Part shown: positions 8,634 to 29,408 of the stretch, in pieces
Position numbering within the stretch: the first letter of the stretch is position 1
Layout of the letters: every line of letters begins with the position of its first letter
The notes under the pieces: model-generated
Told to the model about the DNA's origin: nothing
The model's database searches: none
Seen by the model: only the letters and a program-made list of their open reading frames with translations
NCBI RefSeq assembly: GCF_008630935.1
Contig: NZ_CP043908.1
Span: forward strand, 1,612,001-1,676,000
Reading direction: 5' to 3'
Length of the DNA stretch: 64,000 nucleotides
Origin: Thermodesulfobacterium sp. TA1
GTDB taxonomy: Bacteria > Desulfobacterota > Thermodesulfobacteria > Thermodesulfobacteriales > Thermodesulfobacteriaceae
Translations under genes and position numbers: made by a program

Positions 8634-8660
8634 TTGACAAATTTTTATAAATTATATAAA
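8634..8660 (+). promoter_or_regulatory. Candidate promoter of the type III CRISPR/Calp operon
   Basis: TTGACA at 8634-8639 and TATAAA at 8655-8660, 15 bp apart, lie in very AT-rich DNA and point at the gene starting at 8699. This is a housekeeping-type match with a short spacer. It would give a leader of about 30 nt. Confidence 0.45.
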
Positions 8661-8698: not shown

Positions 8699-9151
8699 AT
8701 GAAAAAGATTAAGGCTTTGCCTTTATTTTTTGAATTAAACCAGCCTTTTCGCAAACATTTAGGCCTTATTCCTAATACCCTTCTCAAAAAATTAGACAAA
8801 GTCTATAACTGCCTTGGGAGTTCCAACCCTAAAAAAATCCGTCCTTGTATTTTTTGGAAAGAAGCCGAGACAGGTTACTATAAACTTGTATTTCTAACCG
8901 CCTCTTATATATCCCCTCTAAAAATCGATTTATCTCTATGTTTTCAGAAACAAAAAATTTGTTCCAAATTTCCTTTTTATAATACTTCTTATGTCATTTC
9001 TCCTTTAGGTAAACCCCTTTGTATATCCCTTAAATCTCCCGAAGACCTACTTTCTGATTTTATCTATTGTGGAAGCTGTGAAGATTTAGAAATATTAGAC
9101 ACACTTATTGTAAACCATTTTTACTCTTCTTCTGATACTACAAAACGATGA
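8699..9151 (+). CDS. Small Cys-rich protein, possible PemK/MazF-like fold, first gene of Calp module
   Basis: A 150-residue protein I do not firmly recognise. The segment KKIRPCIFWKE, a short turn, then KLVFLTASYISPLKI, and later YNTSYVISPLGKP, resembles the RPvlVl, TS and SYv strands of PemK/MazF toxins. Seven cysteines (38, 50, 81, 88, 108, 124, 127), including CGSC at 124-127, are unusual for that family. Its last codons overlap the start of the sigma-like gene by 4 bp (ATGA), so the two are translationally coupled. A role as an extra partner or regulator of the Calp complex is inference. A stand-alone toxin is another possibility. No strong Shine-Dalgarno precedes it. Confidence 0.6.
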   Translation: MKKIKALPLFFELNQPFRKHLGLIPNTLLKKLDKVYNCLGSSNPKKIRPCIFWKEAETGYYKLVFLTASYISPLKIDLSLCFQKQKICSKFPFYNTSYVISPLGKPLCISLKSPEDLLSDFIYCGSCEDLEILDTLIVNHFYSSSDTTKR

Positions 9152-9846
9152 AAGATTATAAACCGATATTACAAAAATTATTAAACAACCAGTGTTCACC
9201 TAAAGATTTTGAATTACTAAAGAAAGACTTTAAGAAACTGCTCAAAAGAGCTTTTAAAACCCATTTTACCTCTTATATAGAAAAAGTTTTTGCTAAATAT
9301 TATGGTCCTGATTATCTTGAAGCTTTATCCCAAGAGCTTTTTGTAAAAATCGTATATCAAAAAGATACCCTTCTTAGTCTAAACTTTATTCACGAAAACT
9401 ATCTCTTTGCTATGGTTGTAAACTTGATATACTATCATCTTTCTTCAGGGTTTAGGGTATTGGAAAAAGAAGTAAACTTTGAGGACCTTTTTTCTCAAAA
9501 AGACCAAGAAGAAAAGGAACTAAAGCTTGAAGAAAGTATACCCCAAGTTTTTATTAATTACTTAGAAGACCAAACCCTTCTACATCTTAGTTTTTCTTTA
9601 AAACAATCTTTAACCAAAAAAGAACTTGAAACCTTATGCTGGTATATATTAAAGAATATCTATAAACATAAAAATCAAACCTCCGAAAAAAGAGATGCCT
9701 TTTATAAAAGATGGGAAAGATTAAAGCCTAAGCTTAAAGAAATTTTAGTAAGAGAATTGTTAGAGGACACAAATACCTATAAATTTTTTGAGGTTATTAA
9801 GTCAGAAATTTGTGAAAAACTTGATTTATTAAAAAGTAAGAAATAA
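9148..9846 (+). CDS. calpS: ECF-like sigma factor, CalpS candidate
   Basis: A 232-residue protein with an ECF sigma layout. A region 2-like helix block (EALSQELFVKIV, then YLFAMVVNLIYYHLSS, compare the usual LxQEvF and RNLxxDHLR) lies at about 55-105. An acidic linker follows. A region 4-like block with a recognition-helix candidate lies at about 140-205 (SLTKKELETLCWYILK, then RDAFYKRWERLKPKLKEIL). It sits beside CalpT- and CalpL-like genes in a type III operon, matching the CalpL-CalpT-CalpS system described from Sulfurihydrogenibium. Predicted role: released by CalpT cleavage to redirect RNA polymerase. Primary-sequence similarity to sigma factors is weak, so context carries much of the call. 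Confidence 0.7.
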   Translation: MKDYKPILQKLLNNQCSPKDFELLKKDFKKLLKRAFKTHFTSYIEKVFAKYYGPDYLEALSQELFVKIVYQKDTLLSLNFIHENYLFAMVVNLIYYHLSSGFRVLEKEVNFEDLFSQKDQEEKELKLEESIPQVFINYLEDQTLLHLSFSLKQSLTKKELETLCWYILKNIYKHKNQTSEKRDAFYKRWERLKPKLKEILVRELLEDTNTYKFFEVIKSEICEKLDLLKSKK

Positions 9847-9882
9847 CTGTGCCTTTTTAAAATTTATAAAAGGATAAATTTT

Positions 9883-10701
9883 ATGCCTTTGGAAGACCAG
9901 ATAAAAAAAGATTTTGAGTTATACAGAACTATTTCATCCGAAGAAATTGAATTGCTACCTGTTAAGAATCCTCAACCTGTCAAGGTTGGGGACTTGAGGG
10001 TTATTCAAGCTATGCCACCCGTTTATTTTGTAATCGTAGAAGAAATGTCTTTTTATCAAGAAAAACTTTACAAAGCGGTCGTGCTAACTGAAGAGATTTC
10101 TTTAGGTTGGCTTTCAAAAGAAACCCCTCTTTTGAGAATTCCAGAGAGTAAAACTTTATTGGTAGCATTGCCGTTTTGGATTTATTTAGAAGATCTTTTC
10201 GTTAGCAAGTTCCTAAAGAAAATAGGGACATTGAAGATGGAAGATATAGAAAAGCTTCTATCTTACGCAGAAAAAACTAATATCCCTAAAACCCTTCAAG
10301 GAGAATACATTCGTTTAGTCATGCAACGGCTTGCACCTTTCAATACGGCAAGTCTTCTTAATTATCTCGAAAAACTTGAAGAATACGAAGAATCTCCTCA
10401 AATAATTAAGCTTTCTCCTTCTATAGAAGAAACTTTTAAAGAATATTGCTTTCAAAAAGCAGCTTCTTCTAAAGAAGTATTTAAAGGGAAAAACTTTTTG
10501 GCTTTAATAGAAAAACTTCAGTCTTATGCGAGACTAATTATTTATTTACCCCAAGAATTTATAGGAAAAAACGTTTCTATCTGGATAAAAGGCCAAAAGT
10601 TTTTTGAAGGAGAATTGAAAAAAGATAAACTTATTTTAGAGCCCCTTCCAGCCCTTCTTGATTATTCATTTCTTGAGGAGGAGCTTGATGTTCAGGTTTG
10701 A
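9883..10701 (+). CDS. calpT: CalpT-like sigma-sequestering substrate
   Basis: A 272-residue protein between the sigma-like gene and the Lon-SAVED gene. The N-terminal part has a possible MazF-like barrel (VKVGDLRVIQ, YFVIVEE, YKAVVLTEE) at about 33-100. A helical middle follows (116-170), then a flexible-looking stretch with Ala193-Ala194-Ser195-Ser196, and a C-terminal part of about 77 residues. In the described Calp system the Lon protease cuts CalpT after activation, splitting it into a large and a small piece. The size here and the small-residue stretch fit that, but the actual cleavage site is inferred. It overlaps the start of calpL by 14 bp. Confidence 0.72.
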   Translation: MPLEDQIKKDFELYRTISSEEIELLPVKNPQPVKVGDLRVIQAMPPVYFVIVEEMSFYQEKLYKAVVLTEEISLGWLSKETPLLRIPESKTLLVALPFWIYLEDLFVSKFLKKIGTLKMEDIEKLLSYAEKTNIPKTLQGEYIRLVMQRLAPFNTASLLNYLEKLEEYEESPQIIKLSPSIEETFKEYCFQKAASSKEVFKGKNFLALIEKLQSYARLIIYLPQEFIGKNVSIWIKGQKFFEGELKKDKLILEPLPALLDYSFLEEELDVQV

Positions 10702-12166
10702 AGTCTTTGAAGAGGATCATCTTTTAAAGTTTCTTTGGCAGGGTCTGCTTGATGAATACATAGAGGATTTATTTTTAAGGTGGGACCTTTTTTCTCCTAA
10801 AATCCAATTTGAGTTAATACATTATGTAAAGACACGTTTAAAGGATGTTATTAGCCCCAAAATTATAGCTCGCGCCCTAAATATAAAAAACTCTGATGCC
10901 CAAAAAATACTTACAGCTAAAGAAAAAATCTTTGAAGTCTTGCTTGTAGAAAAAGAGGTAGAAAAGGCTAAAATTTCAGTAAAACCCTATAAAGGTTTGG
11001 CTATTCCTGAAACCTCTAAAATCATAACCAACCTTCCTGAATTAAGAAGTCCTCTATTAACGATAAAAAAATTTTTAGGAACAAGTTTTGCGGTTTTTTT
11101 TGAAACCTATTTTACCGGGAAAAGTTTTATGCTTCCTTTAGCGGTAGCACTTTCTATAGCTAAAATTCCAGAAGATTTAAGGTTTACAGGTGCTTTAAAT
11201 TCCAAAGGAGACCTTTTAGAGGTAGACCACATTAAAGAAAAATTAAATTACACTAAACAAAATAACCTTAGACTAATAACTCCATTACAAGTAAAACATT
11301 TTAACGCCATTAAAACCTATCTTGAAAACGATAGATGGGATATTCCTTTTTATGTAACCTCATCAGGAAAAGAAGAGTTTAATATGTTTTTAAATTCCTA
11401 TACAGGGACTAAAGTTTTAGCTGAGTTTGAAATCTTAAAAGGTCTTGAACTTTTTTATAATCTTCAAGAAGACAATTTTTATATAATCACAGGACAACTT
11501 AACTCTAAAGAAGACTGGGAAAAAACCTGTAAAACTTTTGCTGAAAAAATAGACCGTATAAAAACCTGCTTGCCTGGTATAAAAACCTATCATTTAGGCT
11601 TAAGAGGGCCTGTTTCCCTTGGTTTTGCTTTTGGGGTTCTTTTTTCTCATTTTGACCCCTTTGTTTTTTATCATTATCAAACGATAGAAGGAGAAACTAA
11701 ATACCATCCTATAAAGGTCGAAGAGCCAAGATTCTTTAAAGAAAGGCTAAAGGTTTATCAATACTTAAAACCTTCTTTTGAAAAAAAGGGAGAAGATTTA
11801 GTGATTGTGCTCAACTTTTCTCACCATGAACCAACCGCAGATGTTAAAAAGTATGTTTCCTCAATTTTAAGAGAGCCATCTTTTCTTATTCTTGAAACGG
11901 AGTTTAAAGGAAATTTACCGATAGAAACTTTTCGTGAAGTGGCAAAAGAAGCTGCAAGCTTTATCCAAGATGTCAGAGAAAAATATTCTTTTAATAGTTA
12001 TCACTTTTTCTTCTCATGTCCTGTTGTTGTAGCTTTTATGATAGGGCTTGCCTTTGGTCATTATGTAGATGGCCAGATTTACAACTTTCAAAAAGGTGAA
12101 AATTTATATCAACCGGTTATCGATTTTAAATTTTTAAGAAAAATTAGAGAAAAAAGGTCAGATTAG
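10688..12166 (+). CDS. calpL: CRISPR-associated Lon protease with SAVED sensor, CalpL
   Basis: Predicted cyclic-oligoadenylate-activated protease. I choose the ATG at 10688 because GAGGAGG lies just upstream; the frame is also open to an ATG at 10658. From 10688 the protein has 492 residues. The Lon-type catalytic core has Ser146 in FTGKSFMLPLAVAL and Lys183 in VDHIKEKL, the Ser-Lys dyad in the usual sequence setting (GALNSKGDLLEVDHIKEKL is Lon-like). The C-terminal SAVED domain (about 230-492) shows YHLGLRGPVSLGFAFGVL and VVVAFMIGLAFGHYVDGQ. In the described system binding of cA4 makes CalpL oligomerise and cut CalpT. No AAA+ ATPase domain is present. Confidence 0.88.
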   Translation: MFRFEVFEEDHLLKFLWQGLLDEYIEDLFLRWDLFSPKIQFELIHYVKTRLKDVISPKIIARALNIKNSDAQKILTAKEKIFEVLLVEKEVEKAKISVKPYKGLAIPETSKIITNLPELRSPLLTIKKFLGTSFAVFFETYFTGKSFMLPLAVALSIAKIPEDLRFTGALNSKGDLLEVDHIKEKLNYTKQNNLRLITPLQVKHFNAIKTYLENDRWDIPFYVTSSGKEEFNMFLNSYTGTKVLAEFEILKGLELFYNLQEDNFYIITGQLNSKEDWEKTCKTFAEKIDRIKTCLPGIKTYHLGLRGPVSLGFAFGVLFSHFDPFVFYHYQTIEGETKYHPIKVEEPRFFKERLKVYQYLKPSFEKKGEDLVIVLNFSHHEPTADVKKYVSSILREPSFLILETEFKGNLPIETFREVAKEAASFIQDVREKYSFNSYHFFFSCPVVVAFMIGLAFGHYVDGQIYNFQKGENLYQPVIDFKFLRKIREKRSD

Positions 12167-12231: not shown

Positions 12232-14811
12232 ATGAAAGATCCAATCCTTTATAAAACCATTTTAGCTGCACTACTTCATGACTTAGGTAAAGTTTATCAA
12301 AGAACAGGAGAAAAATTGCCCGCTGAATTTTTAGAAAAAAATCGTGACTTATATCAGCCTAGTTATAGTGGATATTACACCCACAACCATGTGCTATATA
12401 CTGCTAAATTTATAGAAGATTTAAAAGAATTTATCCCCAATTATTTTTTACAAAAAGAAAACGCAGATTATTCGCTTATTAACTTAGCTGCTAAACATCA
12501 TAAACCTGAGTCAATTTGGCAATTAATCATTAGTGAAGCCGATCAATTAAGTAGTGGATACGAAAGGAGAAGGTTTATAGAAGAAACCAATCCTGAAAAA
12601 GGAGAAACCTCAGCAGATGTCCCACTCCTAAGTCTTTTTGAGGATGTTAGTTTAGACAATAAATGGAAAGAAGGGAAATTAGAGAACTACAAATTTGCCT
12701 ACAACCTTGATAAATTAAAACCTGAAAGTATTTTCCCAACCGATAGAATTGGGAAGATGGTTTCCAAAGAAAAATATAAAAATATCTGGGAAAACTTCAT
12801 CCAAAAATTCAAACAGCTTTCTTCTCAAAAAGGTAGGCCTGAACTTTGGTTAGAAAGTTTAAATACTTTGATGTTAGAATATTTTTTATTTGTGCCTTCG
12901 GCAACGGTTGGAATCTCCTCTACTAATAAGTTCGAGAAAATCCCAACTGACATCTCGCTTTATGATCATGCTTATTTCACCGCAAGCCTTGCCTCAACGT
13001 TATATTTATATCATACAAAAACCAACACCCTTTCAGAAAGTCATGTCCAAAATAGAAAAGAAGAAAAATTTCTATTTATAGAAGGCAATTTCTATGGTAT
13101 CCAAAAATTTATTTTTGCCTCTGGAGGAGAAACAAGAAAATGGGCTGCCAAAATTTTAAGAGGCCGCTCTTTTATGGTATCTCTTTACACAGAATTAGTA
13201 GCTGATTACCTTTTGAGAGAATTAGGTTTGCCTTTTGTCAATTTACTTTTTTCTGCTGCCGGCAAATTTTTACTTTTAGTCCCTAATATAGAAGAAATAA
13301 AAACTAAACTTAAAGAATTAGAGCTAAAAATCAACGATTGGTTTTACGACCATTATTTTGGAGAAGCCTCCATAGGTTTAGTATATACAGAGGCTAAACC
13401 TGAAGAGTTATTATATGAAAATGGATACAATAACCTCATGAAACGTTTAGGTCGCAAATCCGAAGAAAAGAAGTACCAAAAATTTGACCTTTTAAGATAT
13501 GGTGGCGTGATAAAAAATTATTTTGAAAAATTTTCAGGAGCAGGTGTTTGTAAGATTTGTGATAAGAGACCTGCTGAAATTCAAGAAAAATTCATAAAAG
13601 ATGAACAAGAGGAAATTATTCACGTTTGTCGTTTATGTAATGACCATAAAAAATTAGGTGAGTCTTTAGTAAAAAAGAAATATATCTTAGTTTTTACTGA
13701 AAAAAATAAAAACATGTTAAATTCTATTCCTATTTTTAATAAATACTGGATAACCTTTGAAGACAACCCTGATGTTATTCGAGGTTTACTCTCAGAAAAA
13801 GGCCTTATTCATATCTGGGATTTATCTTTACCTAAGGATAAAAAAGAAAACAATAAAGACATCTTTGCTAAAAAGTTTATTAATGCTTATGTACCCTACG
13901 ATGAAGAAAGCAAAGAAATTTTAACCTTAGAGGAACTTGCTAAAAAATCATTAACCAAAGGGGACGATAATAAGATTTACGGAATAGAAGCACTTGGAGT
14001 AATTAAAGCAGATGTAGATAATCTGGGAACAATTTTCTATCGCGGACTGCCTGAAAGCAAACGTACTTTTTCTCGTTATTTAACTCTATCTCGTATGTTA
14101 AACCTATTCTTTGCCTATTATTTACCTTATCTTTGTCAAACCCAATACAAATTAATATATAATGTATTCTCCGGAGGAGACGACCTATTTTTTATAGGCC
14201 CATGGAAAGAGTGCTATGCTTTTGCTTTAAAAGTTAACGAGCTTTTTAAGAAGTATGTTTGTAATAATTCTGCTTTTACCATATCAGCCGGATATGTTCT
14301 TACCAAACCTAACCTCCCGATTATTGAACTTGCAGAAAAAACAGAAAACGCACTTTCCCAAGCCAAAAAAGATGGGAAAAATAGATTAAACATTTTTAGA
14401 AAAAGTATATCCTGGGAAGACATTCCCGAGTTAGAAAATCTCAAAGATTATCTTATATCTCTTTGTAGCAACCAAAAAGAAATTTTGAGTAGAAGTTATT
14501 TGTACAAACTCAACCAAATCCTTGAAATGGTTGAAGAAGCTAAAAGAATGATAAGTATGGCAGATAAAAACACAAATTCAAAGATTGACTTAAAGGAGTT
14601 AGAAAATCTTTTATGGCCGAGTTTATTTTATTATTTTACTGTCAGAAATTTTGATAAAAAAAGGTTATTAAAAAAAGAGGAAAGAGCACAAAAGATGGAA
14701 GATTTTATAATAAAAATTAAAAACGCTTTAGAAAAACACGGAGAGGCTTTTAGATTGCCTCTCTGGCAAATACTATACTCTACAAGGAGGGCAGGATATG
14801 ACTCAAAGTAA
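12232..14811 (+). CDS. cas10: Type III-A Cas10/Csm1
   Basis: Large subunit of the Csm effector. It makes cyclic oligoadenylate and may cut ssDNA when the complex binds target RNA. The 859-residue protein has an N-terminal HD nuclease motif His16-Asp17 (ALLHDLGKVYQRTG), a zinc-binding pair of CxxC motifs at Cys440/443 and Cys466/469, a first Palm region near KADVDNLG, and an intact GGDD at 648-651. A helical D4 domain ends the protein. The intact HD and GGDD sites imply both activities. The gene starts after AAAGGAG, 65 bp behind calpL, and overlaps csm2 by 14 bp. Confidence 0.95.
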   Translation: MKDPILYKTILAALLHDLGKVYQRTGEKLPAEFLEKNRDLYQPSYSGYYTHNHVLYTAKFIEDLKEFIPNYFLQKENADYSLINLAAKHHKPESIWQLIISEADQLSSGYERRRFIEETNPEKGETSADVPLLSLFEDVSLDNKWKEGKLENYKFAYNLDKLKPESIFPTDRIGKMVSKEKYKNIWENFIQKFKQLSSQKGRPELWLESLNTLMLEYFLFVPSATVGISSTNKFEKIPTDISLYDHAYFTASLASTLYLYHTKTNTLSESHVQNRKEEKFLFIEGNFYGIQKFIFASGGETRKWAAKILRGRSFMVSLYTELVADYLLRELGLPFVNLLFSAAGKFLLLVPNIEEIKTKLKELELKINDWFYDHYFGEASIGLVYTEAKPEELLYENGYNNLMKRLGRKSEEKKYQKFDLLRYGGVIKNYFEKFSGAGVCKICDKRPAEIQEKFIKDEQEEIIHVCRLCNDHKKLGESLVKKKYILVFTEKNKNMLNSIPIFNKYWITFEDNPDVIRGLLSEKGLIHIWDLSLPKDKKENNKDIFAKKFINAYVPYDEESKEILTLEELAKKSLTKGDDNKIYGIEALGVIKADVDNLGTIFYRGLPESKRTFSRYLTLSRMLNLFFAYYLPYLCQTQYKLIYNVFSGGDDLFFIGPWKECYAFALKVNELFKKYVCNNSAFTISAGYVLTKPNLPIIELAEKTENALSQAKKDGKNRLNIFRKSISWEDIPELENLKDYLISLCSNQKEILSRSYLYKLNQILEMVEEAKRMISMADKNTNSKIDLKELENLLWPSLFYYFTVRNFDKKRLLKKEERAQKMEDFIIKIKNALEKHGEAFRLPLWQILYSTRRAGYDSK

Positions 14812-15271
14812 ATTTAGAAACAATCAAAGTTTCAATCAAAGACAGAACTTAGACAGAAGGCAACAAGAAAATACCCAACCGTTGCCTGAAATAAAATTTT
14901 GGGAAAACAAAAAAGAAGGATTGGTAAACCCTTTACTTTTTTCTGATATAGCCTACCAATGTTCTGAAATTATTAGTAAAGATACAAAACGCAATAAACG
15001 GTCTCAATTACGTAAGTTCTATGATGAAATTTTATTATTTTACGACCGTTTAAAGGTAACAAAAGAAAGTTTTCCTCAATTTTTACCTTATATAAAATTA
15101 CTGAGAGCTAAAGCTTACTATTCCTTAGGAAGAAAACATATAAACGACGCCTTTAAAGACATGATAGAAAAATGTCTAAATCAAATTGAAACTTGGGAAG
15201 ATTTTGAAGTGTTTAAAAACTTCTTTGAGGCTTTTATGGGATTTTATCGTTATCATAGAAAGGATGATTAA
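14798..15271 (+). CDS. csm2: Csm2, small subunit of type III-A effector
   Basis: All-helical small subunit that lines the crRNA-target duplex in Csm. The 157-residue protein carries the family signature RSQLRKFYDEI followed by FLPYIKLLRAKAYYSLGR. The first 30 residues are Gln/Asn-rich and look disordered. It starts inside the end of cas10 with AAGGAGG upstream, implying coupled translation. Presence of Csm2 and Csm5-type genes marks the system as III-A rather than III-B. Confidence 0.92.
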   Translation: MTQSKFRNNQSFNQRQNLDRRQQENTQPLPEIKFWENKKEGLVNPLLFSDIAYQCSEIISKDTKRNKRSQLRKFYDEILLFYDRLKVTKESFPQFLPYIKLLRAKAYYSLGRKHINDAFKDMIEKCLNQIETWEDFEVFKNFFEAFMGFYRYHRKDD

Positions 15272-15306: not shown

Positions 15307-16044
15307 ATGGAAAAAACACTTCAACTTCAAAAAATTTATCAAATTAAAGGTAAAATTAAACTTTTAACCGGTTTGCACATCGGTTCAGGTAATACTGAAA
15401 TGCATATCGGTGGGGTTGATAACTTAGTAGTTAAAAATCCCCTCACAAACGAGCCCTATATACCTGGGTCAAGCTTAAAAGGAAAAATTAGAAGTTTACT
15501 TGAATATTATCTTGGACTTCCTACTTATTCTGAAAATGTCGATCCTAATAGTGGTGGTATAACCTCTCATAAACTCTTAAACAATAATTCCATCCCAAAC
15601 GAAATTAAAGAAAAAGCAACGCTCATTTTAAAACTTTTTGGGCTTTCAGGTTCAGGAGAAGATGTTCTTAAAAAGATAGGTCCAACAAGGGTTGCCTTTG
15701 CTGATTGTTTCTTCACCGAAGATTTTAAGAAAAAAATTACCAATGAATGTTTACCGTTTACAGAAATAAAAGCCGAAAACCGTATAAACAGAATAACCGG
15801 AACCGCAGAACATCCTCGTTTTATAGAAAGAGTGCCTGCTGGAGCAGAGTTTGATTTTCAGATTACTTTAAAGATCTATAATACAGAGGATGAAAAACTT
15901 CTTGAGGCTCTATTAAAAGGGTTGAAACTTCTTGAACTTGATTACCTTGGTGGTTGTGGCTCAAGAGGATATGGGAGAATAAAATTTGAGTTTGAAGATG
16001 AAAAAATAAAAGAAAAATTCGATAAAATTCAACTTTTTACTTAA
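15307..16044 (+). CDS. csm3: Csm3, backbone RNase subunit
   Basis: RAMP subunit that forms the crRNA-binding filament and cuts target RNA at 6-nt steps. Length 245 is normal. The conserved IGGVDN segment puts the catalytic Asp at position 38. The glycine-rich YIPGSSLKGKIRSLLEYY loop follows, and a C-terminal GGCGSRGYGRIKF is present. An AAAGGAGG ribosome site precedes the ATG. Target-RNA cleavage should therefore be intact. Confidence 0.95.
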   Translation: MEKTLQLQKIYQIKGKIKLLTGLHIGSGNTEMHIGGVDNLVVKNPLTNEPYIPGSSLKGKIRSLLEYYLGLPTYSENVDPNSGGITSHKLLNNNSIPNEIKEKATLILKLFGLSGSGEDVLKKIGPTRVAFADCFFTEDFKKKITNECLPFTEIKAENRINRITGTAEHPRFIERVPAGAEFDFQITLKIYNTEDEKLLEALLKGLKLLELDYLGGCGSRGYGRIKFEFEDEKIKEKFDKIQLFT

Positions 16045-16075: not shown

Positions 16076-17017
16076 TTGAGAACTTATCAAATAAACATTA
16101 AACCCTTAACCGGCTTTGGAACTCCTTTAAAAGGTGACACCCTATTTGGTCAGCTTTGTTGGCAAATTCTTTATGATAAAACCTTGCTGGGTAAAGATTT
16201 AGATACCTTACTTAGTGAATATTCAACAAATCCATTTTGCATCATTTCTTCAGCTTTTCCCTACACGGATGGCAAAATATATCTCAAAAAACCGTCATTA
16301 CCGTTACACTATTTATACGATCTATCCGAAGATGACTTAATAAGCAAAAGAAAAGACTTAAAAAATCAAAAATATTTCGTTTACCAACCACCTCTCCCTC
16401 CTCTTAACAAAATCGAATATATATCCCCCTTGGATACAATTTTGAGTGAAGATGAACAGGTTAGGTGTACGATTAATAGATTTTCTGGCACAACAAGTAG
16501 AAGTGGTTTTGCTCCCTTTGTTGTGCCTAAAACCTGGTATATGACAGAGCTTGCAATTTTTGTTGGTGTAAGAGAAGACCTTCCTATTGAAGGAGTAGTT
16601 GAGGCTCTAAGAAGAATAGGAAGTTTTGGGTTTGGAAAAGATGCTACGGCTGGTTGGGGAAAATTTGAAGTTGTAAACTATAAAGAAATAAATTTTTATT
16701 CTCAAATTAAAAACACTGAAAACGCTTACTATACGCTATCACCTGTCCTTCCTGAGGAAAAGGTTAGATATATTCAAATATTTTATGAGCCTTTTTTACG
16801 TTTTGGAAGACATGGTGATGTGTTGAGCTCCTCTGCTAATCCCTTTAAAGCTCCGGTTTTATTAGCCGATGAAGGAGCTATACTAATTCCTGAAAATTTT
16901 GAAAAGAAAGCCTACATAGGAAGGGCTATATTTAACGTCTCCTCTATATTAGAAGAGGCAGTAACACAAGGATACTCTTTGGTTATACCTGTGGAGGTAA
17001 ATCATGGAAAAATATAA
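16076..17017 (+). CDS. csm4: Csm4, crRNA 5'-handle binding subunit
   Basis: RAMP protein that holds the 5' tag of the crRNA and contacts Cas10. The 313-residue protein has KPLTGFGTPLKGDTLFGQLCW near the N-terminus and the glycine-rich IGSFGFGKDATAGWGKFEV loop in the middle. The start codon is TTG, preceded by AGGAGGGG, which decides the start. It overlaps csm5 by 14 bp. Confidence 0.92.
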   Translation: MRTYQINIKPLTGFGTPLKGDTLFGQLCWQILYDKTLLGKDLDTLLSEYSTNPFCIISSAFPYTDGKIYLKKPSLPLHYLYDLSEDDLISKRKDLKNQKYFVYQPPLPPLNKIEYISPLDTILSEDEQVRCTINRFSGTTSRSGFAPFVVPKTWYMTELAIFVGVREDLPIEGVVEALRRIGSFGFGKDATAGWGKFEVVNYKEINFYSQIKNTENAYYTLSPVLPEEKVRYIQIFYEPFLRFGRHGDVLSSSANPFKAPVLLADEGAILIPENFEKKAYIGRAIFNVSSILEEAVTQGYSLVIPVEVNHGKI

Positions 17018-18149
17018 AATAACCATCGAAGTTTTAAGCCCTATTCATATAGGATGTGATGAAGTATTTTCTCCTCTTGAATTTGTAATAGACAGCCAGA
17101 AACAAATTTTAATAAAGTTTAATCTTTTCGACTTATTAGAAAAGTTATCTCCAGAAGAAAGGACTGAGCTTAACAAAATCTCAAACAAAAAAGATGTATC
17201 TGCTTTAGTGGATTTATATAAATTTTATGCCTATCGGATAAAAGATAGAGTTAAAAGACTCTCTAACATTAAACAATATGCTATACCTTCTGAGCTTGCT
17301 AAAAGATATGAAGAAGTCTTAAAATTACCTCAAAAAGATATTATTCAAAATTTTAACAATTTTGAAATCCCAAGAACTTATTTTAACCCTTACACAGACC
17401 AACCTATAATACCAGGAAGCTCCCTCAAAGGCACTTTAAGAACAGGTTATTTAGAGGCTTTACTAAGACAAAAGATAGAAGAAAAAAGCATAAAAGATTT
17501 AGCCCAAAAGATATCCCAGATCAACGTAAACACTCGTCCTAAAGAAATAAACGGATTATTCAATGAATTAGAAAAAAATTTGTTAAAATATAACAACCCT
17601 TCAGAAGACCCCTTTGGGTCGTTAAAAATTTCTGACTTAAATCTTAAAAACCCGATAGATACTAAAATTTTATATAAAGTAAACGTTAGTAAAGAAAAAG
17701 GAGAACCTAAGGGGAGACTTACCCTTCCTATAGAGGTTATTCCTCCAGGGGCTTATTTTGAAGGCACTATGGAAATAACACAAGCTACAAATAGAGATAA
17801 AATTAATTTTGATGAACTTAAAAACAGTATACATAAACATTTTATATCTATCTTAGAAAAAGAGTATAAGCTTCATAAAAACTTAAACTTTAAAATGTTT
17901 GTGTTAAACCCTTTTCATAAAACCCAAATTAAAGAAAAGAAAGCTGTTTTTATCAAACTTGGTAAACATTCCGGTGCAGAGGCTATGACCATAGAGGGTA
18001 TAAGAAAAATCCTAATCAAAAAAGCTGGAGGGAGAAAAGAATATAGCACATCACCAACGACCATCTGGCTTGCAAGTGAAAGAAAACAAGATATATCAAA
18101 TGCTATGCCCTTTGGATGGGCTATTCTTTATTTTGAGAAGATTGTATGA
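17004..18149 (+). CDS. csm5: Csm5, crRNA 3'-end capping subunit
   Basis: RAMP protein at the 3' end of the crRNA. The 381-residue protein starts with ITIEVLSPIHIGCDEVFSP and has the Csm5 segment PIIPGSSLKGTLRTGYLEALL, with a glycine/lysine-rich FIKLGKHSGAEAMTIEG near the C-terminus. GGAGGT precedes the ATG within csm4. Its stop overlaps the cas6 start (ATGA). Confidence 0.93.
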   Translation: MEKYKITIEVLSPIHIGCDEVFSPLEFVIDSQKQILIKFNLFDLLEKLSPEERTELNKISNKKDVSALVDLYKFYAYRIKDRVKRLSNIKQYAIPSELAKRYEEVLKLPQKDIIQNFNNFEIPRTYFNPYTDQPIIPGSSLKGTLRTGYLEALLRQKIEEKSIKDLAQKISQINVNTRPKEINGLFNELEKNLLKYNNPSEDPFGSLKISDLNLKNPIDTKILYKVNVSKEKGEPKGRLTLPIEVIPPGAYFEGTMEITQATNRDKINFDELKNSIHKHFISILEKEYKLHKNLNFKMFVLNPFHKTQIKEKKAVFIKLGKHSGAEAMTIEGIRKILIKKAGGRKEYSTSPTTIWLASERKQDISNAMPFGWAILYFEKIV

Positions 18150-19060
18150 TAGTAGAAATACCCTATAAAATTTTAAACCTTGACTGTGAGCCGGAAGATG
18201 AACTTTATTTACCCTCTTTTAAAGGGTCCTCTTTTAGAGGGGTTATAGGAAGGACTTTAAGAAAAGCTCTTTGTGTGTTAAAAACCTACAAAGATTGTCG
18301 TCAATGTCCTCTTTATCTAAATTGCTACTATGCCTATATTTTTGAAACCATACCTAATCCTGAGAAGCCTCTACCTTTTAATTTGCACAAATATCCTTCT
18401 ATACCTCATCCCTTTGTTATAAAACCACCAGAAGAAAAAAAAACTTTATACAAAAAAGGCGAAACCTTTTCTATTAAAATCGTTCTAATTGGAAAGGCTA
18501 CAGCTTACGAACCTCATTTTATTCTTGCTATGCGTTTAGCAGGAGAACATGGAATAGGAAAAGGCAATAGGAAATTTTTTATTACTAACTATTCCTCTAC
18601 GGGTATCTTTAAACAGTCTATAACCTTTGACCTTAACAGTAACCATCCGTCTATTTCTGAGCTTACTTTGCAACTTCTTACACCTTTAAGACTAATCTAC
18701 GGAAAAAAATTGGTAAAAAACTTAGAATTTCATCATATTATAAGAGCGCTTTTAAGAAGGATTACCATTTTATACTATTTTCATGTTTCTGAAAACATAC
18801 CAGAGATACCGGTTAAAGGGTTAATAAATCTTGCGGAAAAGATAAAAACAGTTCAATCAAACCTTAAATGGTTTGATTGGGAGCGATATTCTTATAGACA
18901 GAACCGTAGGATGGTTCTCGGGGGCCTAATAGGAGATATAACCTTTGCTGGAGAACTTAGCCCTTTTTATACCTTGCTTAAGGCAGGGGAGATATTCCAT
19001 GCAGGTAAAAATACCTCCTTTGGGCTTGGAAAATATAAAATCCTAACCTCAGGAGAGTAG
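18146..19060 (+). CDS. cas6: Cas6 pre-crRNA processing endoribonuclease
   Basis: Predicted to cut the CRISPR transcript within each repeat and leave the 8-nt tag ATTGCGAC. The 304-residue RAMP protein is of the longer Cas6 class with a Cys motif (CRQCPLYLNCYYAYIFE) after the first strand-helix unit and FKGSSFRGVIGRTLRKAL near the N-terminus. The C-terminal glycine-rich loop is NTSFGLGKYKIL. It overlaps csm5 by 4 bp and is 1 bp from csx1. Catalytic residues cannot be assigned by eye. Confidence 0.88.
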   Translation: MIVEIPYKILNLDCEPEDELYLPSFKGSSFRGVIGRTLRKALCVLKTYKDCRQCPLYLNCYYAYIFETIPNPEKPLPFNLHKYPSIPHPFVIKPPEEKKTLYKKGETFSIKIVLIGKATAYEPHFILAMRLAGEHGIGKGNRKFFITNYSSTGIFKQSITFDLNSNHPSISELTLQLLTPLRLIYGKKLVKNLEFHHIIRALLRRITILYYFHVSENIPEIPVKGLINLAEKIKTVQSNLKWFDWERYSYRQNRRMVLGGLIGDITFAGELSPFYTLLKAGEIFHAGKNTSFGLGKYKILTSGE

Positions 19061-19061
19061 T

Positions 19062-20432
19062 ATGAAGCTAATTTATCAGATAGGAAGGCTTGATGCAAAA
19101 AGTTTTGAAAACATTAATTTTTTTTATAAAGATAAAGAATATTCTGCTCAGCTTAGCTCTTTTGTTTTAAAAGAACATTTTGAAGAAAATAAAGAAAAAT
19201 CTAAGGTAATTCTTATTTATCCAGTAAGTCTTTTAATAAACAAATCTTTTCTTAACAATACCCAATTTCCTGAGGTTTTAAAAAATACAATAAACAATAT
19301 TTTAACTAACCCAGAAAATTATTTCGTAAATCCTCGTAAATACTTTATGGAACATCCTCATTCAAAAATAGCTGATGATTTTATAATAATTCACAGCATA
19401 GGACAATATGAAGGGATTAACTTTTTCGCCACTTTAGAAGACCTTATCCTTGAAATTTTTATAGACTTGGTTTCTCGCTATCAAAAAGAGCCTTTTTCAG
19501 AGCTTTACCTTGATATTTCAAGCGGACATAATATATATGTTTCAGCCCTTCTTGAAGCAGGGAGATTATTTTTCACCTTTTACAAACTCCAGAACTTTCA
19601 TTCTAAGAACGACGATCTTCAAGTTTATATAACTTTCTCTGACCCGATTTTACCTCCATATGATAGAAAGTTTATGATTCGCGAAAAATTCCCTTTAAAG
19701 GTAAAAGCGTTTTTCCATTATCCAGAAACTCCTCATAATAACAGCCTTAATGATGGATACGGTGCTTTTGCTAAACTTTTGACCGGAGAAGCTAAAGAAT
19801 TACGAAAAAAGAAAAATTTATTAAACGAACTTTTTTCTTATGGTTATTTCTTTTACTCAGCTATCAAAAACAATACCCCACTTGTACTCTATACCTGGGA
19901 ATACCATCCAGAAGAAAAAATTGAAGAAGGTATCTCTGTTATATCAACTTTAGTAAAAGACCGATTGACTGCAAACTACCAAACGACACCAAACTTAGAT
20001 TTCAACCTATTTAGTAGTGCTTTTCTTATGTTATCTCTTTATAAAGGAATAGTTAGAGTTTTACAAACTTATAACATTTTTAAAAAAGAAGAAGTTTCCC
20101 TTACCGAAATTAAAAGTAAGTTTTTAGGTAATGATAGCCTTTATCGATGCTTTGGATTAATTCAAAACATCCCATATCTCTCTCATGAAATAAACAATAC
20201 CTTTGAAAAGGAACCGGAAAGAGGAGGAATAAACCACTTGATTACCGAAGACTACAAACTCCTGCGAGAATTTATTAAAGGAGAAAGCGACAAAATAAAC
20301 GACCGCAATTTTCTTGCTCATTGCGGTTTTGAAAGAAATTGTGTTTATGTCAGAAAAAATGAAGAAACCCTATTTATAAAATATAATAAAACGGAACTGC
20401 AAAAGATAGAAGAAATTTTAATTAAAAATTAG
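19062..20432 (+). CDS. csx1: Csx1, CARF-HEPN ancillary ribonuclease
   Basis: Predicted cyclic-oligoadenylate-activated RNase. The N-terminal CARF domain (about 1-205) contains ELYLDISSGHNIYVSALLEAGRLF. The C-terminal HEPN domain contains the catalytic Arg415-x4-His420 (DRNFLAHCGFE). At 456 residues it matches single-chain Csx1 proteins. It directly follows cas6 in the same operon, giving the system a second cOA effector beside CalpL. Csm6 is the close alternative name; the sequence looks more like Csx1. Confidence 0.88.
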   Translation: MKLIYQIGRLDAKSFENINFFYKDKEYSAQLSSFVLKEHFEENKEKSKVILIYPVSLLINKSFLNNTQFPEVLKNTINNILTNPENYFVNPRKYFMEHPHSKIADDFIIIHSIGQYEGINFFATLEDLILEIFIDLVSRYQKEPFSELYLDISSGHNIYVSALLEAGRLFFTFYKLQNFHSKNDDLQVYITFSDPILPPYDRKFMIREKFPLKVKAFFHYPETPHNNSLNDGYGAFAKLLTGEAKELRKKKNLLNELFSYGYFFYSAIKNNTPLVLYTWEYHPEEKIEEGISVISTLVKDRLTANYQTTPNLDFNLFSSAFLMLSLYKGIVRVLQTYNIFKKEEVSLTEIKSKFLGNDSLYRCFGLIQNIPYLSHEINNTFEKEPERGGINHLITEDYKLLREFIKGESDKINDRNFLAHCGFERNCVYVRKNEETLFIKYNKTELQKIEEILIKN

Positions 20433-20442
20433 GGGGGTGTTT

Positions 20443-23125: not shown

Positions 23126-23806
23126 ATGAAGGGAAAAGTAATCGTATACTATGGGCAGAAGGTAGAGTTTTCCCATGAAGTAATTTCTATTATAAGTTTT
23201 ACTAAAGATATAGTTAATGTAGGGAAAAGGCAAATAATTGTTATAAACAAAGAAGAAAAATATTTCAGATATTATTTAAATTTTAAACGATCTCCGGAGA
23301 TTGAAAATTCTTTAATGGCAAAATATCTTAAAAACCGCGAAAAAATAAGAGAAGAAATCAGAACGATTTCTATCTTAGGCCTCAAATATAGAGAACATAA
23401 ACTTTACGGTAAAACCTTTAATGAATTTATACCTTTTAAAGCTCTTATTAAAGAGGTTTCTCTCTTAATTGAGGCATATTATAAATATTACAGTATTGCT
23501 TGTGCCATATTAACCACCTTGTTTTTTACAAAAATCGGGATTCCATCTTCTTTACCTAAGATCATAGACTATATTTATGGACAGGATTTTTTGGATGACT
23601 TCTTTTTTGCCCCTGCCTTTATTTTTACTATCTTTGAATCTACTACAGACTTACTCTTAGGGGAAAGACTTGTAGATGAAGCTTGTATAGCAAGAAGCTT
23701 TCTTTCTTTTCTACTTTGGAAACATGCTAAACCATTATTAAAAATTCCTTACTTTAACTTAATTCAAACCGGGGTTAGCAGGGACTTAATATGGGTTATC
23801 TTATAG
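23126..23806 (+). CDS. Unrecognised protein at the head of the adaptation block
   Basis: A 226-residue protein I cannot assign. Its start (KVIVYYGQKVEFSHEVISI) looks similar in pattern to the start of the Cas1 two genes downstream (TVIIYNHYVELSRKAERLF), so a diverged Cas1-like N-terminal domain is possible. The rest is helical (KALIKEVSLLIEAYYKYY, FIFTIFESTTDLLLGERL) and lacks the Cas1 Glu/His/Asp catalytic set. It overlaps the next cas2 by 16 bp, so it is coupled to the adaptation genes. A spacer-acquisition accessory role is inference from position only. Confidence 0.6.
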   Translation: MKGKVIVYYGQKVEFSHEVISIISFTKDIVNVGKRQIIVINKEEKYFRYYLNFKRSPEIENSLMAKYLKNREKIREEIRTISILGLKYREHKLYGKTFNEFIPFKALIKEVSLLIEAYYKYYSIACAILTTLFFTKIGIPSSLPKIIDYIYGQDFLDDFFFAPAFIFTIFESTTDLLLGERLVDEACIARSFLSFLLWKHAKPLLKIPYFNLIQTGVSRDLIWVIL

Positions 23807-24051
23807 TTTATGACATCTCAGAGCACAAGAAAAGATTAAAAGTTGCAAGAATTTTACAAAAATTTGGCTATCGCATTCAATACAGCGCATTTTATCTACC
23901 TGAAGCAGACGAAAACCTGATAGGTTTCCTTTACGAAGAGATTTCAAAACTGGTAGATAAAACTACAGATAGAGTCTTTTTTTATCCTGTTGACCCCCCA
24001 GAAGTTTTTAAAGGCTATCCACTTGAGCCCTGGAAAATTTTTGTTTTTTAA
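23791..24051 (+). CDS. cas2: Cas2, first copy
   Basis: Small dimeric partner of Cas1 in spacer integration. The 86-residue protein has the Cas2 first strand with its Asp (YLIVYDISEHKKRLKVARIL), then GYRIQYSAFYL and a C-terminal edge segment KIFVF. It overlaps the preceding gene and lies 9 bp before cas1. Confidence 0.9.
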   Translation: MGYLIVYDISEHKKRLKVARILQKFGYRIQYSAFYLPEADENLIGFLYEEISKLVDKTTDRVFFYPVDPPEVFKGYPLEPWKIFVF

Positions 24052-24060
24052 GGGTTTTTT

Positions 24061-24936
24061 ATGAAGCAAACAGTTATTATATACAACCACTATGTAGAAC
24101 TAAGTAGAAAGGCTGAGAGACTATTTATTAAAACCGCTCATACAGAAAGTAGTATCCCTCTTTCTAATATAGATGGCATTCTTATTTTTGGCAAAGTAAA
24201 GCTTACCTCCGATGCCATATCTCTTTGTATGAAAAAACAAATTCCTATCCTTTTGCTCACTATATACGGTCAAATAAAAGCCCAGATTTTACCTCCTATC
24301 GGCAGTGAAACAACAAAAAGAAGATTAAAACAGGTTGGACTTTATTTTTTAAAAAGACTTGATATTGCAAAGTATTTGATTAAGAGAAAATGTCTGGAAA
24401 TAGAATATACTTTTGATATTAATCTTGAGCATTTTAAAGTAAAAGTGGAGAAGGTAAGTGATTATGCAGTTTTACTGGGTTTAGAAGGTCAGGTCTCTAA
24501 ACTGATGTTTCAAAAATTTGAAGAAATGATTAGACCTACCTCATTCACTTTTAGAGAAAGGAACTATCATCCACCCAAGGATGAAGTAAACGCACTATTA
24601 AGTTTTATTTATACCCTTGGATACAATTTATCAACCGCCCTTATTCTCTTAAAAGGTTTTGATCCGTATATTTCTTTTCTTCATTCTAAAAGAGGTTCTC
24701 ATGCTGCTTTTTCTTCCGACCTTATGGAAATAATCCGGCCTAAGCTTACCCATTTTTGCGGAGAAATTTTACTAAACAAACTTATAACTTCGGATGATTT
24801 TATGAAAAAAGACGATTGTATAATGTTAAAAAAATCATCTATTGCAAAAGTGCTAACTGAATTTAGCAACATAAAAGAAAACCTCTTAGAGCTTTTAAAA
24901 GAGTTTTTAATAGAGTTTGAAGGGGTTGAATTTTAA
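24061..24936 (+). CDS. cas1: Cas1 integrase
   Basis: Catalyses integration of new spacers at the leader end of the array. The 291-residue protein has the beta N-terminal domain and helical C-terminal domain. Metal-binding residues are intact: Glu142 (LLGLEGQ), His208 (FLHSKRG) and Asp220 with Glu223 (SSDLMEIIRP). The RERNYHPPKDEVNALLSF stretch matches the conserved PPxDxxNALLS region. It sits between two cas2 genes. No reverse transcriptase domain is fused. Confidence 0.94.
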   Translation: MKQTVIIYNHYVELSRKAERLFIKTAHTESSIPLSNIDGILIFGKVKLTSDAISLCMKKQIPILLLTIYGQIKAQILPPIGSETTKRRLKQVGLYFLKRLDIAKYLIKRKCLEIEYTFDINLEHFKVKVEKVSDYAVLLGLEGQVSKLMFQKFEEMIRPTSFTFRERNYHPPKDEVNALLSFIYTLGYNLSTALILLKGFDPYISFLHSKRGSHAAFSSDLMEIIRPKLTHFCGEILLNKLITSDDFMKKDDCIMLKKSSIAKVLTEFSNIKENLLELLKEFLIEFEGVEF

Positions 24937-25617: not shown

Positions 25618-28600
25618 GTTGAAACCTGCCCTACTTAAAAAGGGATTGCGACTTCATTTCTTACCTCCTCCTCCTTAAATTTTTTTGTTTTGTTGAAACC
25701 TGCCCTACTTAAAAAGGGATTGCGACTAGAAATTCTTATCTTAAATCTAAAGTTCCTGTTCTTGTTTATTGTTGAAACCTGCCCTACTTAAAAAGGGATT
25801 GCGACTCGACTTTGTATTTCATTTTTATTGTATTTAGTATTTCTGGTTGAAACCTGCCCTACTTAAAAAGGGATTGCGACACCTACTGGGGGCTTTAATT
25901 TTTTAAACCCCTAAAATGTTGAAACCTGCCCTACTTAAAAAGGGATTGCGACAAAAAGATTATTGATATTTGATATTTTAGAATTTTTGATGTTGAAACC
26001 TGCCCTACTTAAAAAGGGATTGCGACTTAGCAATAGTGCTTAGTGTTTGATTGGGTACAAAAGTTGAAACCTGCCCTACTTAAAAAGGGATTGCGACACA
26101 TAATAACCTTTCATTTTACACCTCCTCCTTTTTTTAGGTTGAAACCTGCCCTACTTAAAAAGGGATTGCGACACATAATAACCTTTCATTTTACACCTCC
26201 TCCTTTTTTTAGGTTGAAACCTGCCCTACTTAAAAAGGGATTGCGACTATATTTTTTATTTTTTTTTAATTTTTTTCAAGTCATTGTTGAAACCTGCCCT
26301 ACTTAAAAAGGGATTGCGACTCAATATTTCATTTATTGGTATTTCTATCTCTTTTATGTTGAAACCTGCCCTACTTAAAAAGGGATTGCGACCGAGTATT
26401 TCTTTTATTTTAAATAAATATGGATTATTGTTGAAACCTGCCCTACTTAAAAAGGGATTGCGACAATGGTATACTATACTTTTCTTTTTTTATTAGCTTA
26501 AAGGTTGAAACCTGCCCTACTTAAAAAGGGATTGCGACAAGCTTTTTTGATGTAAGACTTCATCTTTTGGGACTTTTCAGTGTTGAAACCTGCCCTACTT
26601 AAAAAGGGATTGCGACAAGTCTATATCTTTTAATATTACAAAATTATATTTTAATAGTTGAAACCTGCCCTACTTAAAAAGGGATTGCGACTAGATCTCT
26701 TCTATATACCATATACCAACCTAAACCATATATATGTTGAAACCTGCCCTACTTAAAAAGGGATTGCGACTTATATTTTTTATTCTTTTTATTTTTTATT
26801 TTTTAAAAGTTGAAACCTGCCCTACTTAAAAAGGGATTGCGACATTTAAACTTTTGATAAATTGATCATCTATTTCTATTTCAGGTTGAAACCTGCCCTA
26901 CTTAAAAAGGGATTGCGACATTATAAACAATAAAGCTTATCAAAAAGTTATCTAATTTGTTGAAACCTGCCCTACTTAAAAAGGGATTGCGACACTTTTT
27001 CTCAAAAGTTACGAAAAGAGAGTCTTTTAGTTGAAACCTGCCCTACTTAAAAAGGGATTGCGACGTAAAGAAAGCTTTTCATTTTATTGGCTTTCTCAAA
27101 GTTGAAACCTGCCCTACTTAAAAAGGGATTGCGACAAAAAACTATCAAGATATAACCATAACGGAGTAGCTAGTTGAAACCTGCCCTACTTAAAAAGGGA
27201 TTGCGACTAAAATCCTCTCATAACTTACCTCCTTTTTTTTTGATTTGTTGAAACCTGCCCTACTTAAAAAGGGATTGCGACTTTTCAGAAATCTTTTTAA
27301 CTCAAAGCTATTTAACCGGTTGAAACCTGCCCTACTTAAAAAGGGATTGCGACAATTTTTCTTTTTCTATTAGCATTTTTCAATCTCTATATTATTGTTG
27401 AAACCTGCCCTACTTAAAAAGGGATTGCGACTATCGAGGTTCAAAGTTCGATAAAGAAAGTCTTTCATCTGTTGAAACCTGCCCTACTTAAAAAGGGATT
27501 GCGACTTAAGGTTATTCAAGGTTTCAGGTTTAGTAAAAAGTTGAAACCTGCCCTACTTAAAAAGGGATTGCGACATTAAAAAAAGATTAAGAGGCAAGCT
27601 TAATGGCTTGCCTCTGTTGAAACCTGCCCTACTTAAAAAGGGATTGCGACATGTCTACACCTCCTCTTATTTTAATTTTTTTTATTTTTCTATTTGGGTT
27701 GAAACCTGCCCTACTTAAAAAGGGATTGCGACTGGTATAGACTTAATACAAGATTTTTTTAATATAGAAATGTTGAAACCTGCCCTACTTAAAAAGGGAT
27801 TGCGACCCATGTTATTTGCGGTATATATTAGTTTTAGATCTCTTCTATAGTTGAAACCTGCCCTACTTAAAAAGGGATTGCGACATTCAAAACTAAAATA
27901 TCTGTTATCTATTATCCTGTACAGTTGAAACCTGCCCTACTTAAAAAGGGATTGCGACTAATTAGAGATACATTATTTGTAAACTTTGAGAAAAGAGTTG
28001 AAACCTGCCCTACTTAAAAAGGGATTGCGACTGGCTTTTTTCGCTACCTTTTAATGATAGCCTTTTTTCAAAGCTTATGTTGAAACCTGCCCTACTTAAA
28101 AAGGGATTGCGACAATAAAATCCTTTCATTTTAAACCTCCTTTTTTTAGTTTGTTGAAACCTGCCCTACTTAAAAAGGGATTGCGACTTATGAATAAACT
28201 ACCATTAATTAAAATGTAAAATCCTTTGTTGAAACCTGCCCTACTTAAAAAGGGATTGCGACTAAAAAATAATTTTTCTTTTTCTATAATCATTTTTTAT
28301 ACCTGTTGAAACCTGCCCTACTTAAAAAGGGATTGCGACAAATAGTTTTTTTGCTATTTCAAAAAATATGTCGTTATTATCGGGTTGAAACCTGCCCTAC
28401 TTAAAAAGGGATTGCGACAAGACATTCTTGCATTAATTTAGAATAGTGACTAGCAGTAAGAGTTGAAACCTGCCCTACTTAAAAAGGGATTGCGACAAGT
28501 TGTTTAGTGGTAATATCTTTGTAAAGCATTATCATTTTTAGTTGAAACCTGCCCTACTTAAAAAGGGATTGCGACAAATAGTATCCTTTAATGTCAGAGA

Positions 28601-29408
28601 AATCATATCCACATGTTGAAACCTGCCCTACTTAAAAAGGGATTGCGACGCGGCTAGCTTCTTAGAGATAGAACATGCGAGAGACTATAAAGTTGAAACC
28701 TGCCCTACTTAAAAAGGGATTGCGACAAGTTGTTTAGTGGTAATATCTTTGTAAAGCATTATCATTTTTAGTTGAAACCTGCCCTACTTAAAAAGGGATT
28801 GCGACAAATAGTATCCTTTAATGTCAGAGAAATCATATCCACATGTTGAAACCTGCCCTACTTAAAAAGGGATTGCGACTCTTCCTGTAAAGTCTTCCTT
28901 ACTCTTAAATTTTCTTGTTGAAACCTGCCCTACTTAAAAAGGGATTGCGACAAAACCTTCCTTCCCTCTTCTTCCAGTCCTTCCATGATACGTGTTGAAA
29001 CCTGCCCTACTTAAAAAGGGATTGCGACCCCCCTTTTTTATCTTTTTTAGCAGCTTTTCTAGATTTTTTAAGTTGAAACCTGCCCTACTTAAAAAGGGAT
29101 TGCGACGCGAGAAAACATATCTTAAAAAAATTTGCTTTTCTTCTGGTTGAAACCTGCCCTACTTAAAAAGGGATTGCGACTAAAGGAGATATTATCATCT
29201 TAAAAATAATCCCAAACATGTTGAAACCTGCCCTACTTAAAAAGGGATTGCGACCTTAAGATTAAAGCTTTTCCTTCTTTGCTATAAGAATAATGTTGAA
29301 ACCTGCCCTACTTAAAAAGGGATTGCGACAAGTCTCTTTAGCCTTTTTTTCTAAATCCTGAATAATTTGTACAGTTGAAACCTGCCCTACTTAAAAAGGG
29401 ATTGCGAC
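25618..29408 (+). CRISPR. CRISPR array, 51 repeats left of the IS110 element
   Basis: Identical 35-nt repeats begin GTTGAAACCT and end GGGATTGCGAC, with an internal CCCT/AGGG stem. The first is at 25618-25652, the last before the element at 29374-29408. The 50 intact spacers are 34-47 nt, mostly 36-44. Spacer duplications: 26098-26137 equals 26173-26212; 28497-28540 equals 28727-28770; 28576-28614 equals 28806-28844. No repeat variants were seen in this part, so the array looks young or homogenised. The expected crRNA 5' tag is ATTGCGAC. Confidence 0.98.

Follow-up and report, generated by a model that had tools for sequence, protein, structure and literature searches.

The DNA analysed here (the window) is a stretch of 64,000 nucleotides from Thermodesulfobacterium sp. 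TA1 (contig NZ_CP043908.1, positions 1,612,001 to 1,676,000), part of a 1.83 Mb single-contig genome, and it holds what is very probably a Calp module of four genes joined to a type III-A CRISPR system. Calp is a rare case of a CRISPR system that answers infection through a change in transcription. On the plus strand, a 150-amino-acid (aa) open reading frame (ORF) is followed by the genes for CalpS, CalpT and CalpL, by cas10, csm2-csm5, cas6 and csx1, by a few others, and finally by cas2, cas1 and the array (Table 1). The initial annotation had placed a complete three-gene module, consisting of a Lon-SAVED protease, its 272-residue neighbour CalpT and an extracytoplasmic function (ECF)-type sigma factor, directly upstream of cas10 in a type III-A operon; an ORF check of the window recovered these reading frames, and the three identities and the position of the genes are borne out by the searches described below. 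The term 'complete', however, understates the module, because the 150-aa gene, which that annotation left unnamed, also belongs to the operon.

The Calp genes and their type III-A neighbourhood

The protein encoded immediately before cas10 carries a Pfam SAVED domain (PF18145, 3e-22), matches the PADLOC Lon/CARF-SAVED models at up to 1e-131 and aligns over residues 22-477 with the CalpL crystal sequence of Sulfurihydrogenibium sp. YO3AOP1 (7qda/8b0r; phmmer against PDB sequences, 4e-31). When full-length CalpL homologues are aligned, S146 and K185 are invariant (44/44); these correspond to S152 and K193 of Sulfurihydrogenibium CalpL (SsCalpL), which form the published Lon catalytic dyad. Mutation of R361, K364 and H392 of SsCalpL has shown a role for these residues in cleavage of the cyclic tetra-adenylate (cA4) ring (PMC11417357), and their equivalents are kept as R348 in all 44 homologues and as K351 and H380 in 42 of the 44 each; the cA4 pocket residues include H329 (SsCalpL H345), which is invariant, and S443. 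Judged from these homologues, CalpL of the window would bind cA4, oligomerise and act as a protease. Another solved Lon-SAVED protein, CalpL of Candidatus Cloacimonas acidaminovorans (PDB 9eyi-9eyk), is a more distant match (2e-8) than that of Sulfurihydrogenibium, and the closest solved sequence to the SAVED domain of the window is AcrIII-2, a viral SAVED ring nuclease (2e-47; PMC12751052, PDB 9r8s). Some Aquificota Calp operons encode longer CalpL-like proteins of ~565 aa, in which a Lon domain and a SAVED-like part that has diverged are followed by an additional region at the C-terminus. In L097, the only one scanned with Pfam, this region is STIV_B116-like (the AcrIII-1/Crn2 ring nuclease family); the proteins of L096, L098, L099 and L100 align with it by eye, and in these proteins the fused domain may stand in for the ring nuclease of SAVED.

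CalpT is recognised by the PADLOC models CRISPR-T (7e-22) and Unk_02 (8e-35), and when a profile of ten CalpT relatives was searched against all PDB sequences the best match was CalpT10 (8b0u), at the C-terminal end (E = 0.02). The type locus was read in L101, which contains the sequence stretches of 7qda and 8b0u, and there CalpT10 is exactly residues 196-271 of Sulfurihydrogenibium CalpT (SsCalpT), 76 aa; the SsCalpT cut is therefore placed at HVA195/S196TSQK (the slash marks the cut). The aligned segment of the window protein reads QKA193-A194-S195-S196-K197, and Ala or another small residue occupies the cleavage point in nearly all of 48 CalpT homologues, so that cleavage of the window CalpT is predicted in A193-A194-S195-S196-K197. 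The published idea is that the cleaved fragment is subsequently degraded by ClpXP, and a C-terminal Ala left after the cut would suit such degradation. The N-terminal domain of CalpT has a distant similarity to PemK (hhalign). In one locus (L072:6737-8659) CalpT and CalpL are read in a single frame of 640 aa, which is either a fusion or an assembly error.

A single PADLOC model, 'HTH', matches the window CalpS (1e-20) and its type-locus counterpart (5e-13), and both proteins belong to a profile family in which the segment YKRWERLK is highly conserved. We accept the identity of CalpS because it is homologous to the published protein, not because of its fold. Visual inspection of the sequences preceding the operon in 39 loci revealed no ECF-type promoter common to them, and the region is not enriched in sigma-70-like sites relative to shuffled sequences. 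The window has a TTGACA at 8634 with a TATAAA 15 bases further, which we do not count as evidence.

Directly after the Calp genes, cas10 encodes a protein of predicted cyclase type, in which the HD and GGDD motifs are kept, and csm2-csm5 and cas6 follow. The arrangement corresponds to the Sulfurihydrogenibium system (PMC11417357; PDB 7qda, 8b0r, 8b0u) in the gene order S-T-L, the Lon-SAVED architecture, the dyad and ring-nuclease residues, the CalpT10 domain and the cleavage-site region, although the two are distant in sequence, as the CalpL match above indicates. The two loci differ in their surroundings: in the window a type III-A (Csm) operon that includes Csx1 comes after Calp, whereas calpL of L101 precedes type III genes of other make-up. 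Between csx1 and cas2-cas1 lie a TraT-like gene (PF05818, 2e-54; 20437-21195) and a DUF996 gene (22126-22716).

Table 1. Positions of the features discussed; a locus label precedes positions outside the window
Feature	Position	Strand	Basis
Fourth Calp component ('S150', PADLOC C3a162-like), 150 aa	8699..9151	+	conserved position before calpS, hhalign, AlphaFold2 (AF2), Foldseek
CalpS, predicted ECF-type sigma factor, 232 aa	9148..9846	+	PADLOC HTH, profile family of type-locus CalpS
CalpT, predicted anti-sigma factor and protease substrate, 272 aa	9883..10701	+	PADLOC CRISPR-T and Unk_02, profile match to 8b0u
CalpL, Lon protease-SAVED, 492 aa from ATG	10688..12166	+	Pfam, PADLOC, PDB sequence matches
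cas10/csm1, HD and GGDD motifs (predicted cyclase, source of cyclic oligoadenylate)	12232..14811	+	Pfam, PADLOC, motif check
csm2	14798..15271	+	
csm3	15307..16044	+	
csm4	16076..17017	+	PADLOC
csm5	17004..18149	+	
cas6	18146..19060	+	
csx1, predicted CARF-HEPN ribonuclease, second cyclic-oligoadenylate effector	19062..20432	+	
cas2	23791..24051	+	
cas1	24061..24936	+	
CRISPR array, 51 copies of 35-base repeat GTTGAAACCTGCCCTACTTAAAAAGGGATTGCGAC	25618..29408	+	
CalpL-like proteins of ~565 aa	L096:1655-3358, L097:5952-7643, L098:6342-8054, L099:5730-7427, L100:3885-5600		
AcrIII-1 family (PF08960) genes	L119:6814-7317, L120:2234-2626, L121:11496-12002, L122:10475-10807, L124:16476-16808		
100% spacer matches (32-37 bases) to Hydrogenobaculum phage 1, NC_028651	L192:849-950, L194:892-923		

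A fourth gene before calpS

The ORF that opens the interval stands directly before calpS in relatives too. Among 51 loci of Thermodesulfobacteriota and Aquificota, searched with profiles built for this analysis, 44 have all four Calp genes grouped together. In four of the seven others (L009, L061, L069 and L079) a contig ends close by; L063 (5886-8118) has a CalpT-CalpL operon that lacks both calpS and the fourth gene; L072, with its single calpT-calpL reading frame, has the fourth gene twice; and L017 is considered below. A survey of 136 Aquificota genomes found the gene in 57, and every site checked there adjoins calpS or a contig end, with the exception of one truncated, decayed orphan in a genome without calpL. 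It is also present in the type Sulfurihydrogenibium locus (L101:4293-4838), where PADLOC labels it 'C3a162, unknown function'; it is therefore catalogued, yet it is not discussed in the accessible Calp papers, which describe a tripartite system. In the window and many other loci the gene overlaps calpS by 4 bases, which suggests coupled translation, and in three loci it is duplicated in tandem (L067:4403-5340, L072:5159-6096, L142:4331-5268). The Calp operon thus has four genes, not three, which goes beyond the earlier reading.

R48-P49 does not vary across 34 aligned members of this family, Thr or Ser occupies position 67 throughout, and C81, C88, C124 and C127, each kept in 33-34 of the 34, form a putative Cys4 metal site. 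None of the eight members scanned has a Pfam match, to PemK, MazF, ToxN or any other family. A comparison by hhalign with a set of ten PemK sequences gave E = 1.6e-4 at a probability of 50% (unrelated pairs 0.05-0.5), and in this alignment the Arg-Pro and Thr/Ser of the fourth protein fall on those of PemK. The AF2 model (predicted local distance difference test, pLDDT, 81; predicted template modelling score, pTM, 0.80) has ToxN as its best Foldseek match in the PDB, with CptN and AbiQ also listed, and two PemK-like proteins at ranks 1 and 2 in the BFVD viral library, all with E > 0.1. A search for Pfam ToxN (PF13958) in 198 relatives, intended for a profile comparison, returned nothing above the cut-off. 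A PemK/MazF-like fold is therefore a lead, on which three rankings agree while none is significant alone, and because no single test is significant we do not file the protein in the PemK/MazF family. It resembles the PemK/MazF and ToxN/AbiQ/CptN toxins in the Arg-Pro and Thr/Ser alignment and in fold rank, but differs from them in its four conserved Cys, in the missing Pfam PemK match and in its setting, which is an operon with a sigma factor and not the neighbourhood of an antitoxin gene. The coupling of the gene to calpS and its loss together with calpS favour a partner role, and the fourth protein is probably a physical partner of CalpS/CalpT; the retention of the Arg and Thr/Ser favours a restrained RNase, an activity that it may possess and that is compatible with partnership.

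A CalpT-like protein in viruses

Scanning viral contigs of IMG/VR with the CalpT profile identified four contigs, and a later scan a fifth, each encoding a CalpT-like protein of 131-151 aa (in L121 at 7920-8327). The viral protein is colinear with CalpT residues from about 36 to 170; it ends before the cleavage site and lacks the CalpT10 part. A profile of four of the viral proteins, run against 1916 host ORFs, found CalpT only, with the window CalpT as the best match (1e-10), and against the whole of the window's own genome it found only the calpT site. Comparison of the viral and CalpT profiles by hhalign gave 4e-10, where unrelated families gave 0.05-0.3. With E values scaled to a large database, single-sequence blastp of the window CalpT against the viral proteins gives 8e-4 to 6, a borderline result, and we therefore base the claim of homology on the profile comparisons. 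Neither PADLOC nor PHROGs recognises the viral proteins, and no relative of CalpL, CalpS or the fourth protein was found in the scanned viral contigs.

The contigs are viral and come from hot-spring viruses related to Hydrogenobaculum phage 1: L121, the one examined, has a Prim-Pol gene with 95% identity to its counterpart in this phage, L119 and L120 carry close copies of the gene, and the phage record itself breaks off within a CalpT-like gene. Near the CalpT-like gene, each of the five contigs and likewise the phage encode an AcrIII-1 family protein (PF08960 was confirmed in the five scanned), which the phage record NC_028651 annotates only as a hypothetical protein. AcrIII-1/Crn2 (STIV_B116-like) thus occurs in the same viruses as the CalpT-like protein, but is of a different family and would act at a different step of the pathway. 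We suggest that the viral protein may be an uncleavable sigma trap, which would be a new anti-CRISPR strategy.

Hydrogenobaculum phage 1 is a metagenome assembly that was assigned to Hydrogenobaculum through spacers (PMC7689252). The spacers found here question or widen that assignment. In two genomes of the window's genus, spacers lying between repeats are identical to this phage, two adjacent ones in G007 (over 37 and 36 bases) and one in G013 (over 32 bases). A third genome, G014, has a Calp operon and an array on the same contig, with a repeat one base off that of the window, and a spacer of this array matches a gene of these viruses in diverged form (a hand count gives about 25 identities in 31 bases); if the handle is AUUGCGAC, its direction would give a CRISPR RNA (crRNA) antisense to the viral mRNA. 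The family of the window, the Thermodesulfobacteriaceae, has been exposed to these viruses, and exposure of a Calp carrier, based on the partial match, is likely. When spacers of the window array and of some other arrays were compared with the viral contigs, nothing was found beyond a 25-base, 88% match, and a search of Aquificota genomes with the phage primase DNA gave only short matches, the best of them in apparent coding sequence and not in an array. The spacers point to Thermodesulfobacterium-like bacteria as hosts of viruses of the 'Hydrogenobaculum phage 1' type.

Proposed circuit and its alternatives

The genes, catalytic residues and site residues of the window correspond to published Calp homologues, and from these we take every activity in the following scheme, in which the circuit would operate here, as the initial annotation proposed, with cA4 and release of CalpS. 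At rest, CalpS would be held by CalpT, itself bound to CalpL. Upon encountering a matching phage RNA, the Csm-Cas10 complex would produce cA4, which would be bound by the SAVED domain and cause CalpL to stack into oligomers, and the Lon domain would then cleave CalpT within A-A-S-S-K. The N-terminal fragment, still bound to CalpS and now ending in Ala, would be degraded, freeing CalpS to redirect transcription, and CalpL would time the response by destroying cA4. The fourth protein, small and with its putative Cys4 site and suspected PemK/MazF-like fold, would most likely act in a complex with CalpS/CalpT, either as an additional regulator of CalpS or as a restrained RNase. Viruses appear to attack the circuit: in infected cells, their CalpT-like fragment would trap CalpS even once the host CalpT is cut.

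Several observations weigh against this scheme. Some contributing SsCalpL positions are changed in the window (K366 to Arg, S391 to His and H474 to Asn). Pfam Sigma70_r2 is found in two of 35 CalpS family members (best 1.7e-5) and is absent from the window protein, whose AF2 model (pLDDT 75, pTM 0.48) has no significant PDB match; sigma factors, sigma-E region 2 among them, account for six of its 19 non-significant PDB matches. The sigma nature of CalpS is thus modestly supported, mainly by homology to the published CalpS. The fold matches of the fourth protein, which has no Pfam match, are individually weak (Foldseek E 0.18-0.41), and L017 (672-13235) keeps calpS, calpT and calpL without the fourth gene, in a locus whose cas10 is broken into several frames.

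This last locus, together with the decayed orphan copy in an Aquificota genome, would fit a fourth gene that is a toxin-like passenger with no part in Calp signalling. We think this improbable, since the gene adjoins calpS across two phyla with 4-base overlaps, has disappeared along with calpS from L063, forms tandem duplicates in three loci, and has no intact copy away from calpS at the sites checked in the 136 Aquificota genomes. The broken cas10 of L017, together with a frameshifted calpS in L020, also shows decay of the system in some relatives; that the window operon is itself such a relic without function is very hard to reconcile with its intact genes, kept key residues, Cas10 HD and GGDD motifs and 51-repeat array. 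Another alternative concerns what is released. If the MazF-like part of CalpT, the fourth protein or both were RNases, Calp would free a toxin instead of, or besides, a sigma factor and lead to dormancy or death. CalpT23 was indeed first described as MazF-like (PMC9704534), the N-terminal domain of CalpT aligns with PemK, and the fourth protein, in all 34 members compared, carries Arg-Pro and Thr/Ser where it aligns with those of PemK and has PemK-like proteins, ToxN, CptN and AbiQ among its closest folds. We nevertheless regard toxin release as unlikely: later work assigns CalpT as an anti-sigma factor (PMC11417357), CalpT itself does not keep the Arg-Pro motif, the fold matches are all non-significant and no separate antitoxin gene is apparent.

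For the viral protein, the alternative to a trap is a viral regulator that binds a sigma factor for the virus's own transcription programme and is not an anti-CRISPR. This is possible, if somewhat doubtful. It would agree with the failure to find calpL in the three genomes searched that we take by their size to be Hydrogenobaculum, the recorded host of the best-known relative, and equally in G007 and G013, the genomes with the 100% spacers. In all searches, however, the viral protein is closest to CalpT proteins from the family of the window, and most of all to the window CalpT; an AcrIII-1 family gene lies nearby in every virus, and G014, with its partial spacer match, carries Calp on the same contig. 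The boldest reading is that Calp is a four-part system in which a PemK-like protein, the product of the first gene, and the sigma factor are under joint control, and that viruses lock CalpS with an uncleavable CalpT fragment, alongside an AcrIII-1 family protein that removes cA4; we put it forward tentatively, as somewhat less likely than not. AcrIII-2 is a precedent for the capture of a Calp domain by viruses of thermophiles; it removes cA4, whereas the viral CalpT fragment would act downstream, on the sigma factor.

The Calp circuit itself was already known, of which the window holds a new member, and the points of most interest here are a fourth gene that had been passed over and a CalpT fragment in viruses. 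We know of no anti-CRISPR that acts at the level of a sigma factor so far. Because it is conserved in almost all operons examined, that of the type locus among them, the fourth gene offers a direct lead to a missing regulator or effector of the system. If our reading of the viral protein is true, a CalpT that lacks the cleavage site would be the first sigma-level anti-CRISPR and a reagent for locking the circuit, and it would show that the transcriptional arm of Calp is costly to the virus.

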